49,445 nucleotides of DNA, taken from a bacterium (GTDB taxonomy: Bacteria > Bacteroidota > Ignavibacteria > Kapaibacteriales > UBA2268). Positions 13,819-49,346 of this stretch are shown piece after piece. The stretch spans positions 1 through 49,445 of the forward strand of contig JANJTB010000012.1 in assembly GCA_024711295.1 (NCBI GenBank), written 5' to 3'. The number at the start of each line of letters is the position of its first letter. The stretch's first letter is position 1. Under the pieces are notes generated by a model, which was given only the letters and a program-made list of their open reading frames with translations, was not told where the DNA came from and ran no database searches. The position numbers were made by a program, and so were the translations under genes.

Positions 13819-13922
13819 TTCCCCGCTTGAGGGGTGCCTGCCGTAGCAGGCGGGGTGGATGGATTTCCAAAACACCGGCAATAATATATCATTTTCATAC
13901 TTTCTTGAATCGTCAGAACCTT

Positions 13923-13990
13923 GATTTTTGTGATTATCCTGATTACCCTGATTTTTTAGAATCATTGCAATCAAATAAATCATGCAAATC
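13923..13990. repeat. 9-bp-phased GATT/AATC dyad (4+4 words)
   Basis: GATT occurs at 13923, 13932, 13941 and 13950; AATC at 13960, 13969, 13978 and 13987. Spacing is 9 bp within each half and 10 bp at the centre. The outer flanks GTCAGAAC and GTTCAGAC extend the inverted symmetry imperfectly. Confidence 0.88.
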
Positions 13991-14148
13991 AAAGTTCAGA
14001 CATTTATATTGGGCGGGGTGGATGGATTTTTCGGACAACTCTCAATTCCCCTCTTGAGGGGTGCCTGCCGTAGCAGGCGGGGTGGATGGATTTCTACACA
14101 CCGGCAATAATATGTCATTTTCATACTTTCTTGAATTGTCAGAACCTT

Positions 14149-14207
14149 GATTTTTGTGATTATCCTGATTTTTTAGAATCATTGCAATCAAATAAATCAT
14201 GCAAATC
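14149..14207. repeat. 9-bp-phased GATT/AATC dyad (3+4 words)
   Basis: GATT at 14149, 14158 and 14167; AATC at 14177, 14186, 14195 and 14204. It is the same element as at 13923 with one 9-bp word missing from the GATT half. Confidence 0.88.
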
Positions 14208-14327
14208 ATAGTTCAGACATTTATATTGAGCGGGGTGGATAACCTAAAAATAATAAAATATTCAAAAAATACTTCAATAACTGTAACTTTTCTTCCCTTG
14301 AGGTTTCATATATATGTAAATTATTTG

Positions 14328-20916: not shown

Positions 20917-21003
20917 CATATTTTTTTTGTGGAGTCCGGAGACCACATTAGAAATAAACGGGGCGATATCCGAAAAGCCTTATGAGTAGGAGTGGGAGAT
21001 ATT

Positions 21004-35348: not shown

Positions 35349-38300
35349 ATGATGTTTAGAAAGTACATCTTTTTTCTGCTGATGTTGAATATCTCTGTAA
35401 GTACAGAATTATTCTCATTATGGCAACCTTATAACGTTCCTGATTATATTCGTGCTGATTATTTCGAACGTTTCCCTGATTTTTATAAATACCCTATAAA
35501 CGGTAAGTTAAAGTATTACGAGCCTACCGCAGAGGATTTAAAATTTGTACCAGCCGAGACAAGTTTATTGTCGAGTGACGGTATCGAAGTAATTAATTTG
35601 TCCTCATCATTCCCAAATGCCAAAACTGAAACATGGATGGCAATAAATCCTTTCAATCCTGATAATCTTATTGCAACATGCAATGATAATGCTTATCTTG
35701 GCGGATTTGACGGATTCAGAATGACTGCATTTGTATCAAAGGATGCCGGACGCTCATGGACACACCGTCCTACTCCATCTAACCGTGGCGAGTGGTTTAC
35801 TCCTTCAGGCAATGCGGCAACGATATTCGATCCGGGTGTTGGCTTTGATTCGAAGGGCAATGCATATTACATTTACGGATTCTCCGAAACAAGCTGGGGA
35901 AGCGAGGATAAAGATACCGAGCAAAATGGTGTATTTATAGTAAAATCAACAAATGGCGGCGAAACATGGGATGCATTAAAGAATGGCTCAGAAAAGGGTA
36001 TTCAGGCAATTACCACTGACGCATTCCGTACATCAGGCAATCCATTCCACGACAGATATACCATCGGTGTGGATGCCAGCCCTACATCTGCTTACAAAGA
36101 CCACTTATATGTAACTTGGAGAGTATTCCGTGGTGTGGAAGGTATCGTTTACAGCAAGTCATCTGATGGCGGCGAAACATGGACTCCTTATCGCAGATTA
36201 GCTCCTAACGGGCAGGCTCCTCAGCCTGTAACAGGTCCTAATGGTGAAGTTTATATCACTTGGATTGATGCTGATATGAACAATTATGCCAAAGCTATGT
36301 TTTTACGCTCGTTCGATGGTGGCACCAACTTCAGCTCGCCACTCGAAGCTCAGAGAGTAATCAGCGTAGGCGACAGACATCCTGTAAGCTACAGATTCGT
36401 ATTAACTAACAAACAAAATATTCGTGTGTCATCTGTACCTCAACTTGCAGTTGACAATTCAAACTCACCTTACAGAGGAACACTTTATATCGTTCAGGCA
36501 GGACGTGATAATACAGGTGGTCCTTACGGTATATACTTGGCAAAATCAACAAATCAGGGCACAACCTGGATAAAGAATGTTCGTATTGACAATGCTACAC
36601 GCAGAAATGACATGTTCTTTCCAAGTATATCTGTTGACCCTGTTACCGGACTTATAGCAGTATTATATTATTCTTCACAGAATGACCCCGACAACGTAGG
36701 CGTTGACGCATATATCGCCTTGTCGAATGATGGCGGCGAAACATGGAAAAACATGAGAGTAAGCCCTAACACAACTTACCTCCGTGCTCCGAATACGGTT
36801 TTTGCACAGGGTGGTGAAGGCAATGTTTATTGGGGAGATTATACTCACGTCGTTGCTTACAACAATAGAGTTTATCCACTCTACTGGGCACCAACTGCCG
36901 AAAATTACCTATACTATTCAACTGCTCTATTTACTGCATTTATCTCTCCTGCTCCACAGCAGCCTTTCAATCCTGATTTTCTGACTATGACAGGACCTCT
37001 AAGATTAAAACTTACTTGGACACATCCGACTAAAAATCTTTTAGGTGAAAATTTAGGCAATTTCAAGATAAATGTTTACAAAGGTGATAATAAAATCGGC
37101 GAAGTAAACAAGAATCAAACTCCTGAATTTTTTGATAATGATGTAGTTTACGGACAAAAATATACCTACTACTTAGAAACAGAGTCAGATAATGGTTTGA
37201 AAAGCTCTAAGACTGAGTTAACGGCTACTGTTGGCGGCAATCCTAAGCCAAAAGCTCCGACCGAGCTTACATGGCGTCCGGCTGCAAATGGCGTTACATT
37301 GATTTGGAAAAATCCTTCACAAACTATAAATGATGAACCTTTCTTAGATGGATTAAAAGTTGCCGTTTATGATGCTTCGACTAATACACTGATAGAAACA
37401 TTCGGCTCATCAGAATTTACTGCAGGTAATACAGCAAGCCATACAGTTGCTCTCGAAACAAACAAATTCTATGATTTGAATATCAAAGTTGTTGGCGTTA
37501 GAGGTACTGTTGAGACAGAGTCAGATTTTTCTGCTACTCCTGTTATAGCTTATGCCGGAACACCAAAAACCGAGCTTGAAGAAACTTTCGATATACCTCA
37601 GGCAAGAGTTCCTGCTTATGTTAAAGGTAAATGGAATGTGACTACAAGCAAGAGTGTATCTGCTCCGAATAGCTTTACAGACTCACCTGACGGAAATTAC
37701 TCTGCAAATGCAAATGAGTTTTTCATTTTGGCGCCGGTTATTTTATCATCAGGCAAATCAACTATTAGTTTCGACCACATTGCTCTTATTGACACATTGG
37801 TTAGAATTGACAACCAAAATGTTCCAAGACTTGATTATGGCGAAATAGCTTATTCTGAAGATTTTGGCCAGACTTGGAAATTATTGAAATGGGTAAATAA
37901 GAATTCATCAGAAGACTTCATTATCAATAATCTCGAAGCAAGTAAATGGCAAAACTTAGCTTTCAATTTAAGCGGAAATGTTGGTGATACTATCTTGTTC
38001 AGATTTACATTATCATCAAACGATTTCAGAAATACTGACGGCTGGTACATTGACAACATCAAAATTGATGACAGACCATCATCAGTAAACTACAATCTTG
38101 AAGAAATGTCATTGATTTCTGTTAGCCCAAATCCTGCAAAAGATTTTGCAAGAGTAGGCATACGCACAGCCGTTGATTCTGATATCAGAATTGAACTTTT
38201 TGATGTGTTGGGCAACAAAATTATCAGTGAATTTTTGCCGTCTCAGTCAGCAGGAGAACTTATCAAAGAATATAATCTTTCAGATCTCGCTAACGGCATG

Positions 38301-38475: not shown

Positions 38476-40878
38476 ATGGCAAAGACTTCAAAAAGTAAGA
38501 AAAAAACAGAACTAACAGATACTTTAGCGGATGAACAAACGATTGCGGTTGTCGAAACCGGAGCAAAATCATCCGGCAAAAAATCTGTTCGAAAAGTAAA
38601 GCCAGAAATTTCGGAGCAAACGGTTCAGGTTAACGATACAGTTAAAAATAAGCAGGAGACTCCCGAAAATGATAATCCGGCATCTGTGACGGAAGTGCGA
38701 TTAAAATCTAAACATAAAAAACCGAAGAAGATTGACGGTAAACCCTTAGATAAGAAAATTGACGACACAATACCAGGTAAACCACAAGGCAAAGCTGACG
38801 CTGAAATTAAACCGGAAGTGAAGGTCCCTGTTCAGGAAACTCCAAAAGATACTGTTGCTCTGACACCCGATAGTGATAATACTATCGTAAGAGGCAAGAA
38901 CTATCACAAAAATAAAAAGCTTAAGAAGATTGACGGTAAACCCTTAGATAAGAAAATTGACGACACAATACCAGGTAAACCACAAGGCAAAGCTGACGCT
39001 GAAATTAAACCTGAAGTGAAAGTTACTGTTCAGGAAACTCCAAAAGATACGGCTACTCTGACACCCGATAGTGATAATACTATCGTAAGAGGTAAGAACT
39101 ATTATAAAAATAAAAAGCGCAAGGAGAACATCAAAAGAAAGCTCGAACAAAAAAAACTTGCAGAAATTGATGCCCAAACTGAAGAGATAAATACAGTGGT
39201 TGCCGATGAATTACCTGTTGAAAATGTTGTGAGCCAAACTGAACCGGAAACAACATCAACTCAAAATAAGCATAATTCTCAAAAGCAATCTCCTAAAAAG
39301 CAAAAAAATCAACCTCAAAAGAAAGAAGAGACAAATAAGCCAAAGCTGCTTACCCAAACAGACAGAAAAAATAAAGATAAGAATACTAAAAAAACTGCAC
39401 CACCAAAGGTTAAGAAGGAATTGCTTTATTCGATTATGCCTGAGAAAAAGCAGCTCACCAAAAAGCAGTTATCTAGCGAAGTATTAATGAAATTCCTCGA
39501 AAATGTTGAGGACTACTTGCGCAAAGAAGCTTATATTGAGGCAGGCGGAAAGCTGCTTGTGGCTGTCAGTGGAGGTGTTGACTCGGTTGTTTTGATGGAT
39601 TCACTGTCGTACCTGGCTGATAAGATGAAGTTTACACTTTATGTTGCACACTTCAACCATCAATTACGCGGGCTCTCGTCTGATAATGATGAGTCATTGG
39701 TCAGACAGATTTGTAAAGATTACAATTTGCATTTTTATAGCGGTACAGGCAATGTTAAACATTATTCCACTAAGAACAGTTTGTCAATTGAGCACGCTGC
39801 AAGAATTTTGAGATACAACTTTTTCGAAAGAACCGCAAGAAATATTAATGCTGATATAGTTGCTACTGCACATACCGAAGATGATTTGGTAGAGACATTC
39901 TTTATCAACCTATTCAGAGGAAGTGGTTTGACAGGTCTTAGCAGTATGCCTTCGAAAAGAAAGTTTGTTAAGAATGTCACTTTGGTCCGACCATTTTTGC
40001 AGTTCAATAAAGCTGAATTGTATCAGTATGCCGAAATCAGAAATCTGAAATGGAATGAAGATGAAACCAATTCCCTTTTGAATTATACACGTAACAAAAT
40101 TCGTCACGACTTGATTCCAAAGCTGAAAAATGAATATAATCCTTCAATAATTCAGACCATAAACCGCACTGCAGAGTTGATTCAGGGAGCAGATGAAGTA
40201 ATAAAGGATTTCGTTGTAAAAACTGCACCTAATATTATCGAAGAGTCGAGCAACGAGAAGTTTAGTCTTAAGATTAATATGCTGCTGACATTGAACAGAT
40301 TTATGCAGGGCGAAGTTTTGCAATATGCATGGAGCAAATATTTCAGATTGCAGCCTATGTCATTGGCAGTTATTGACAGAATTTTGGAACTTACCGACAA
40401 ACAAACTGGCAGTATTTGCGAGATTTCTTCCGCGTATTTTGTTCTCAGAGACAGGAATAACCTGATTTTTGCTAAAAGAGCCAAAGAAGTCTCTACTTCG
40501 TTGATTATCGAAAAGCCCGGTGTATATAAATTGGGCAAAAATAAGCTGGAGATTACCGAGGTACAATGGCAGGATGTCAAGTTTAGCGAAGATAAAAATG
40601 TAGAGTACATACCGGCGGATATGGCATTGCCTTTCCTCGAAATTCGTAACAAACGCGAAGGAGATATTTTCCACCCCTTGGGTGCTCCAGGCGAGATGAA
40701 ACTGAGCGATTTCCTTACCAACGAAAAAGTATCATTGATAGATAAGACTAATGTATTGATTCTGACAAACAGAATTCATGTTTTGTGGGTGTTGGGATAT
40801 AGAATCAGCGAAAAAGCAAGAGTCGGCAAAAAGACTTCAAAGATATACAGATTAAGATTATTAAGTAACGAAAAATAA
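38476..40878 (+). CDS. tilS: tRNA(Ile)-lysidine synthase with long Lys-rich N-terminal extension
   Basis: TilS converts C34 of the tRNA-Ile CAU anticodon to lysidine so that it reads AUA. The catalytic part starts near residue 335. The PP-loop is VAVSGGVDSVVLMDS (SGGVDS 365-370), with HFNHQLRG and ATAHTEDDLVETFFINLFRGSGLTGL; the C-terminal TilS domain has HPLGAPGEMKLSDFLTNEKV and WVLGYRISEKARV. What is odd is the roughly 330-residue Lys/Glu/Pro-rich, probably disordered N-terminus, including a 66-residue tandem duplication (38725-38922 and 38923-39120). The frame is open throughout. In-frame ATGs at 39436 and 39487 could give a normal-sized enzyme. hpt follows after 20 bp. Confidence 0.9.
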   Translation: MAKTSKSKKKTELTDTLADEQTIAVVETGAKSSGKKSVRKVKPEISEQTVQVNDTVKNKQETPENDNPASVTEVRLKSKHKKPKKIDGKPLDKKIDDTIPGKPQGKADAEIKPEVKVPVQETPKDTVALTPDSDNTIVRGKNYHKNKKLKKIDGKPLDKKIDDTIPGKPQGKADAEIKPEVKVTVQETPKDTATLTPDSDNTIVRGKNYYKNKKRKENIKRKLEQKKLAEIDAQTEEINTVVADELPVENVVSQTEPETTSTQNKHNSQKQSPKKQKNQPQKKEETNKPKLLTQTDRKNKDKNTKKTAPPKVKKELLYSIMPEKKQLTKKQLSSEVLMKFLENVEDYLRKEAYIEAGGKLLVAVSGGVDSVVLMDSLSYLADKMKFTLYVAHFNHQLRGLSSDNDESLVRQICKDYNLHFYSGTGNVKHYSTKNSLSIEHAARILRYNFFERTARNINADIVATAHTEDDLVETFFINLFRGSGLTGLSSMPSKRKFVKNVTLVRPFLQFNKAELYQYAEIRNLKWNEDETNSLLNYTRNKIRHDLIPKLKNEYNPSIIQTINRTAELIQGADEVIKDFVVKTAPNIIEESSNEKFSLKINMLLTLNRFMQGEVLQYAWSKYFRLQPMSLAVIDRILELTDKQTGSICEISSAYFVLRDRNNLIFAKRAKEVSTSLIIEKPGVYKLGKNKLEITEVQWQDVKFSEDKNVEYIPADMALPFLEIRNKREGDIFHPLGAPGEMKLSDFLTNEKVSLIDKTNVLILTNRIHVLWVLGYRISEKARVGKKTSKIYRLRLLSNEK
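38725..39120 (+). repeat. Two tandem 198-bp repeats in the tilS 5' region
   Basis: Copies at 38725-38922 and 38923-39120 differ at about a dozen of 198 positions by my eye count, and each encodes 66 residues (KKIDGKPLDKKIDDTIPGKP onward). The length is a multiple of three, so the frame is kept. The high identity suggests recent duplication or ongoing homogenisation. Confidence 0.9.
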
Positions 40879-48959: not shown

Positions 48960-49292
48960 TCATTATTCTTGTTGTGGAAACCCATCCACCACGCGCAAAG
49001 AAAATATCTGAACTATGATTTAATGATTGATATGATTATTATGATTTCAAAAATCAGAAAAATCAGGATAATCACATAAATCAAGGTTCTGACAATTTAA
49101 GGGAGTGAGAAGATGACATATTATTGCCGGTGTGTGGAAATCCATCCACCCCGCCTGCTACGCAGGCACCCCTCAATGAGGGGAATTGAAAAATTGGTTG
49201 CAAGATGGAGATGTTTGTTAAAATATTTGGCAACAGTGTGAAATCCGTCCACCCCGCCTGCTAAGGCAGGCACCCCTCAAGAGGGGAAATGA
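48960..49292 (-). repeat. Dispersed intergenic repeat block, copy 3
   Basis: This block has the same orientation as the one at 1-425. It contains a decayed CCCATCCACC start, a complete GATT/AATC dyad (49017-49082), the CAAGGTTCTGAC flank, the ATATTATTGCCGGTGT segment, and two double hairpins (49139-49188 and 49241-49290). It fills most of the 571-bp gap between the receptor and the last gene. Confidence 0.85.
49017..49082. repeat. 9-bp-phased GATT/AATC dyad (4+4 words)
   Basis: GATT at 49017, 49025, 49034 and 49043; AATC at 49052, 49061, 49070 and 49079. One step is 8 bp and all others are 9 bp. Confidence 0.85.
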
Positions 49293-49346
49293 GAAAAAAT
49301 ATGTGTTTTTTTTACTTTTTTCAAATATTTTGGGACAAAAATCAAA

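Follow-up and report, generated by a model that had tools for sequence, protein, structure and literature searches.

Prokaryotic MITEs are short, multicopy elements with inverted ends, nearly all copies of which lack a gene of their own, and in the part of the review available in-frame fusions upon insertion are also mentioned (PMC10969869). The Rickettsia palindromic elements, treated in the same part of that review, are frequently inserted in frame within genes (PMC10969869). A minisatellite-bearing MITE, BrickBuilt, was described from Porphyromonas gingivalis, with about 19 intergenic copies, terminal inverted repeats like those of IS5 members and a tandem array of 23-nt direct repeats, for which the accessible part of the description gives no match outside the species (PMC4596501). 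REPs of the GTAG/CGTC families are short extragenic palindromes with stems of 5–13 bp and a 4-base tag, present in many copies in several phyla according to the portion of the source at hand (PMC3733652). The motif YTAR is given as the target duplication of IS5 in the section available (PMC10359306). In a search of open PubMed Central papers, no match to the element described below was recognised, and six short strings of the repeat were absent from the papers searched.

The Arrays and Their Copies in the Genome

The DNA analysed, here called the window, is a stretch of 49,445 nucleotides that makes up contig 29 of a 3.45-Mb genome. The five GATT/AATC arrays that a sequence-only reading had reported were all found where it had placed them. 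At the contig start, on the minus strand, lies a partial array (3–45) consisting of a left arm of three words, with the end GTTCTGAC at 38–45, followed by a complete array on the same strand (179–258; words at 190–247) with the ends GTCTGAAC at 179–186 and GTTCTGAC at 251–258. GC-rich modules of the repeat family D2 were located nearby on the minus strand at 83–144, 297–358 and 359–420, the last with no array of its own. The two central arrays, both on the plus strand, belong to tandem units about 226 bp apart, in the interval from the end of a cytidylyltransferase-like gene (13818) to the start of a Por-secretion-tail gene (14372). Each unit opens with the GC-rich module, continues through the linker into the array and finishes with a short piece that repeats the end of the module. 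The first comprises the module (13819–13867), the linker common to array copies (CAAAACACCGGCAATAATAT..., 13868–13911) and an array of 4+4 words (13912–14001; words at 13923–13990) with the ends GTCAGAAC (13912–13919) and GTTCAGAC (13994–14001); the second comprises the module at 14042–14094 and an array of 3+4 words (14138–14218; words at 14149–14207) with the ends GTCAGAAC (14138–14145) and GTTCAGAC (14211–14218). The fifth array, on the minus strand at 49006–49093 (4+4 words at 49017–49082, with one 8-bp step), has the ends ATCTGAAC (49006–49013) and GTTCTGAC (49086–49093) and is accompanied by D2 modules at 49130–49191 and 49234–49295 on the same strand. The GC-rich module, at 13819–13867 and at other sites, contains two short hairpins and also occurs free of arrays, followed by several different short sequences. 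An Rfam scan of the window gave no match at the arrays, and the DUF805 RNA at 20924–20996 was the one family that reached its threshold (58.2 bits versus 51.1). A 198-bp direct tandem duplication (38710–39105; 93% identical) was also observed within the ORF at 38476–40878.

When the 422-bp central region was used as a BLAST query against the genome, 43 places were found, of which 14 scored at least 181 bits, and many of the others corresponded to the GC-rich module alone. In total, 20 array copies were read, with about 60–90 bp between their ends and one of them cut by a contig end; most were preceded by the GC-rich module and linker. The number of words per half had been put at three or four; in the 20 left arms, four words were counted in six copies, three in eight, two in two, one in three and none in one. 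The 18 readable right arms always carried four words, with one word changed to AGTC in two of them and an 8-bp step in one. The outer flanks had been said to extend the symmetry, and here they do so at seven of eight bases (GTCAGAAC versus GTTCAGAC), whereas elsewhere the symmetry is often exact (GTCTGAAC...GTTCAGAC).

The picture of conserved tetramers with free spacers stood in its first half. Across the 18 right arms, departures from the consensus numbered 10 among 288 word cells and 39 among 270 spacer cells, and after removal of one copy shifted by a base the values were 2 of 272 and 26 of 255, respectively; since these copies are close relatives, this amounts to modest evidence of word conservation. 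The spacers were not free, as each array was found to use a 9-mer dialect of its own. One exceptional copy encloses two genes. In contig 17 of the genome (L013:561–1345), two ends of the repeat, the left with a single GATT word and the right reading TTCAGATATT...GGGTGGATGG as recognised by eye, have between them, where the array would be, a small gene lacking a Pfam match and a gene for a PemK-type toxin. This is a single case that could represent an insertion into an array; in nine other stretches inspected, no GATT arms split around a gene were seen.

Spacing of the Words

The phase of the words lies beyond chance. The pattern GATT-N5-GATT-N5-GATT was matched 15 times in the window, whereas 100 dinucleotide-shuffled sequences gave 0.05 matches on average and never more than one; 14 of the 15 matches were members of the arrays and one was located outside them, at 35646–35667. 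When the window was scanned with no word prescribed, 31 runs of three words had period 9, and the other periods from 5 to 15 had 0–3 each. In the whole genome, the three-word pattern gave 25 matches on the plus and 29 on the minus strand, against one on each strand for the reversed pattern, and a dyad of 3+2 words gave 21 and 23, against none on either strand for the reversed control.

The 9-bp spacing, said to hold almost without exception, is not absolute, as steps of 8, 10 and 11 bp also occur. Within the window, the 8-bp step is found at 49017–49025; the one-armed arrays of phages step by 9, 8 or 10 bp; and the outermost step in a mainly Bacteroidales sample was 11 bp at 43 of 80 ends and 9 bp at 23 of 80. 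A probe that imposed no phase, TTGTCTGAAC-NNN-GATT, was run against viral contigs and gave at least 120 stretches with 109 distinct sites. Among the matches listed, the next GATT followed at +9 in 23 of the 109 sites and at any other distance in two at most, while 71 sites had no further GATT within reach; the 23 sites represent 16 loci, three of these in one contig. Strict 3+3 dyads in viral contigs were counted in six stretches at an 8-bp phase, in eight at 9 bp and in none at 10 bp, and the near parity of the first two weakens the idea of a strict 9-bp reader. One viral contig of 67 kb carries four one-armed GTCTGAAC-GATT arrays between genes (L227, L263, L292). GATT arrays of viral contigs (L254, L312, L321) also have a second dispersed repeat, GGTTGCTTCG...CGCAATGACG, within them or alongside.

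Distribution in Other Genomes

The sequence-only reading had named two outcomes that would speak against it, the lack of copies outside the window, or copies with conserved spacers and no 9-bp words. Both were looked for; copies were found far beyond the window and the 9-bp words were kept. The strict 3+3 dyad was present in eight of 395 genomes of the same phylum, the present genome included and the sole one of its class in that sample (reversed control, 0), which makes for a rare and patchy occurrence. One congener carries one array. Among GTDB contigs, at least 116 stretches with the strict dyad were found in other genomes, which by title belong to many bacterial groups. The matches listed include isolates of Flavobacterium, Asticcacaulis, Larkinella and Anabaena, as well as metagenome-assembled genomes of Chloroflexi, Planctomycetaceae, Auribacterota, Desulfobacterales, Kiritimatiellae, Fibrobacteres and others. 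A record of Flavobacterium johnsoniae (L150) is among those with an array. Two styles of array were distinguished among these matches, one closed by GTCTGAAC/GTTCAGAC and the other resembling CCACAGATTACACAGATT or ACAGGATTAACAGG. A whole-genome search of 50 genomes, namely the present one and 49 picked for having an array (that of L047 left out), gave strict matches in all 50, with 1 to 65 per genome, a four-word array possibly counting twice; the reversed control gave none in any of the 50. A search for similar plasmid DNA gave no match. A larger repeat, about 120 bp per copy, is present in tandem in a Flavobacterium locus (L094:4821–5380) and includes a GATT arm as well as CACAAATT words.

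Genomic Context

Checks on location relative to genes and on strand bias had been proposed and were carried out. The arrays are mostly intergenic: 20 of 133 lay inside an ORF of at least 60 codons, compared with 79% of random positions, and these 20 were mostly in short mechanical ORFs. The median distances to the nearest mechanical ORFs were 59 and 61 bp. No strand or orientation bias was found, as the flanking ORFs were tandem, convergent and divergent in 71, 14 and 11 cases (n = 96), against 221, 53 and 52 of 326 background gaps at the same loci, respectively. Nor was a common neighbour family recognised: of 139 neighbouring ORFs at loci L029–L037 and L041–L120, 138 were scanned (L030 duplicates L029), and no Pfam family, whether that of a RAYT transposase or another, had more than two members among them. 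One congener has an array inside the coding sequence of a DNA methyltransferase (L029:1500–1558), with the reading frame kept. The array occupies a hypervariable linker, which differs in length between four plasmid homologues, and because of that hypervariability it cannot be proved to be an insertion. A second in-frame candidate (L092) was rejected, as the array precedes the MatE domain and is probably upstream of the true start.

A link between GATT arrays and four-helix-bundle or GxxExxY genes was also considered and was not supported, with three-word GATT runs at none of 60 such loci and two-word pairs at 13. The present genome gave no four-helix-bundle or GxxExxY match, and the control genomes were silent too, though the model matched 113 of 148 genomes in a further search. 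The 30 four-helix-bundle loci (TIGR02436; L157–L186) contained 110 exact three-word runs at period 7, in varied words, and seven at period 9; AAGT words were present in one of the 30. Four GxxExxY genes (L187, L190, L194, L210) were seen by eye to have words resembling CACAGAG or GCAAAG in their flanks, irregularly spaced and in inverted orientation, and the exact three-word runs at GxxExxY loci numbered eight at period 10 and none at period 11.

Ends, Flanks and Probable Mobility

Terminal inverted repeats are present, as GTCTGAAC/GTTCAGAC in one lineage and as AGCCTG..ATTCATCA in an Auribacterota genome. The ends of the former were examined in a sample of 80 ends from 37 loci, made up of the copies from Tannerella and Symbiothrix together with 22 further loci and drawn mostly, though not solely, from Bacteroidales. 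A sharp end was found at TTGTCTGAAC, since from 3 to 25 bases outside it the commonest base reached 29 to 45%, whereas the two T of TTGTCTGAAC, which unlike GTC and GATT were not required by the search, were kept in 74 and 79% of the ends. An element of 151–152 bp in the Auribacterota genome (L055) has the array at its core. Identical 4-bp flanks were found in eight of its 20 copies and differed or could not be placed in 12; among copies with both ends matched at 12 or more of 13 positions, six of nine had identical flanks. Target duplication in this genome is probable. The identical flanks were CTAG (three), CTAA (two), TTAG (two) and CTAT (one), of which seven of the eight fit the IS5 motif YTAR (PMC10359306), and this suggests that the Auribacterota element may be moved by an IS5-type transposase. 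By eye, no target duplication was recognised in the GTCTGAAC-ended copies or in the mosaic of the present genome. In two Auribacterota copies (L409 and L417), inspection by eye showed the array core in the opposite sense to the outer flanks, which sets them apart from the other copies compared.

At the single site that was compared, neither of the two further genomes in the genus has the array: a different gene comes almost immediately after the orthologue of the upstream gene. Because gene order has also changed in these congeners, the locus cannot be taken as a clean empty site. The dispersed and probably mobile behaviour of the repeat had escaped the sequence-only reading.

Weighing the Explanations

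It had been proposed that the periodic words reflect either contact with a protein or a folded single strand, rather than slippage; of these, folding gained little support, a protein remains a candidate and slippage keeps a role. Pairing of the two arms, in a folded RNA or an extruded single strand comparable to a REP stem or an IS200/IS605-like end, would explain the rhythm as short helices separated by small internal loops. Four window copies do fold with z values of −4.08, −1.79, −3.76 and −4.78, and 18 cores of the genome reach −4.5 to −21.9 kcal/mol with their words paired in register from the outside, yet folding better than shuffled sequences is expected of any palindrome. The spacers are more informative. 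If base pairs were selected, spacers opposite each other should be complementary, and in Symbiothrix the mirror arrangement indeed scored 8.27 against 5.27 for the crossed one. Across 138 distinct arrays, however, the mirror value was 5.59 of 10 and the crossed value 5.40 of 10, with the mirror better in 48, worse in 45 and equal in 45, whereas the mean between different arrays was 3.09. When right arms were dealt at random among copies, in sets that are small and from which the unoriented Tannerella set was left out, the observed values were 5.67 against 5.90 dealt for Auribacterota (18 unique), 3.33 against 3.45 for the present genome (six unique) and 8.27 against 8.01 for Symbiothrix (11 unique), the last being reached in 389 of 2000 shuffles, or 217 of 2000 with G–U pairs. 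No copy-by-copy covariation of spacers across the dyad was thus detected, so that hairpin pairing is not supported as the selected feature; with the Rfam scan blank at the arrays as well, we regard this explanation as unlikely. The near equality of mirror and crossed values indicates instead that units within one element are alike in their 9-mer dialect but not in register for base pairing, which favours recognition or homogenisation unit by unit.

Homogenisation would be all that is needed if the repeat were a degenerate 9-bp minisatellite folding back through template switching, that is, the product of mutation bias and not of function. The units within an arm are alike at 2.60 and 2.79 of 5 spacer positions, on which the role left to slippage rests, and the range of zero to four words in left arms and the reversed cores of L409 and L417 point the same way. 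Against this stand the same core word and dyad across many bacterial groups, the period-9 excess in the window, the sharp conserved ends and the better conservation of words than of spacers, and slippage as the whole explanation seems distinctly improbable. A transcription signal, either a terminator or an operator between genes, would suit the mostly intergenic position close to the nearest ORFs, and three of the four one-armed arrays of the 67-kb viral contig have an ATG shortly downstream; given that orientation does not depart from background gaps and that the orthologous site carries no array in two congeners, this reading is considered highly improbable.

The explanation preferred here, to which about an even chance is given, is a non-autonomous palindromic mobile repeat whose units would be read in trans. 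Dispersal or mobility taken by itself is likely, and reading by a protein at 9-bp steps is put forward tentatively, with somewhat less than an even chance. Such an element would be a non-coding palindromic repeat of MITE or REP grade, its two arms forming inverted arrays of a unit of about 9 bp built on GATT, and its ends in one lineage being formed by TTGTCTGAAC/GTTCAGACAA. Such a repeat would spread in trans and could sit inside larger miniature elements or mosaics. A candidate protein, possibly a recombinase, nuclease or nucleoid protein, would read the words singly at 9-bp steps, with the dyad offering it two arrays that face each other. The dialect of each element may have arisen by co-evolution with the reader protein or by slippage homogenisation; from the sequences we infer these origins, as well as present-day movement and word-by-word reading. 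A wider reading, which we hold to be quite unlikely, would see a class of small mobile palindromes across many phyla, defined by phased words, whose period (about 9 bp for GATT) betrays a unit-counting protein of recombination or maintenance not yet described. The period-7 four-helix-bundle loci might then be a sister system, and small genes might be carried, as the PemK-type toxin pair suggests. Should spread by a trans-acting factor prove true, an uncharacterised element would be present in genomes of many bacterial groups, in up to dozens of copies and with a signature that is easy to search for, and a protein that counts 9-bp units would become a definite hypothesis, open to test.

Comparison with Known Systems

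The element shares with REPs, as far as the available part of the source describes them, the short extragenic palindrome, the many copies and the occurrence in several phyla, but it has arms of about 40 bp and ends of the type GTCTGAAC/GTTCAGAC in place of the short stems, as a rule no tag, and no neighbour gene common to its copies (PMC3733652). Since these REP features are lacking and target duplications were found in one genome only, it is placed in neither the MITE nor the REP family. The likeness to the Rickettsia palindromic elements (PMC10969869, available part) lies in the array set in frame within the methyltransferase gene, 9 bp being three codons; the frequent in-frame insertion of those elements differs from the one convincing case here, with 20 of 133 arrays in ORFs. 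Like BrickBuilt, for which part of the description was at hand (PMC4596501), it presents an intergenic tandem array in a miniature element that also occurs in Bacteroidales, although its unit is 9 bp instead of 23 nt, its arms are inverted rather than direct and its copies extend to many groups rather than one species. With prokaryotic MITEs, as characterised in the part of the review available (PMC10969869), it has in common the short length, the multicopy state, the inverted ends and, in nearly all copies, the lack of a gene of its own, and it differs from them in an interior made of an inverted array of phased words and in flanking 4-bp duplications that were seen in one genome only, that of Auribacterota.
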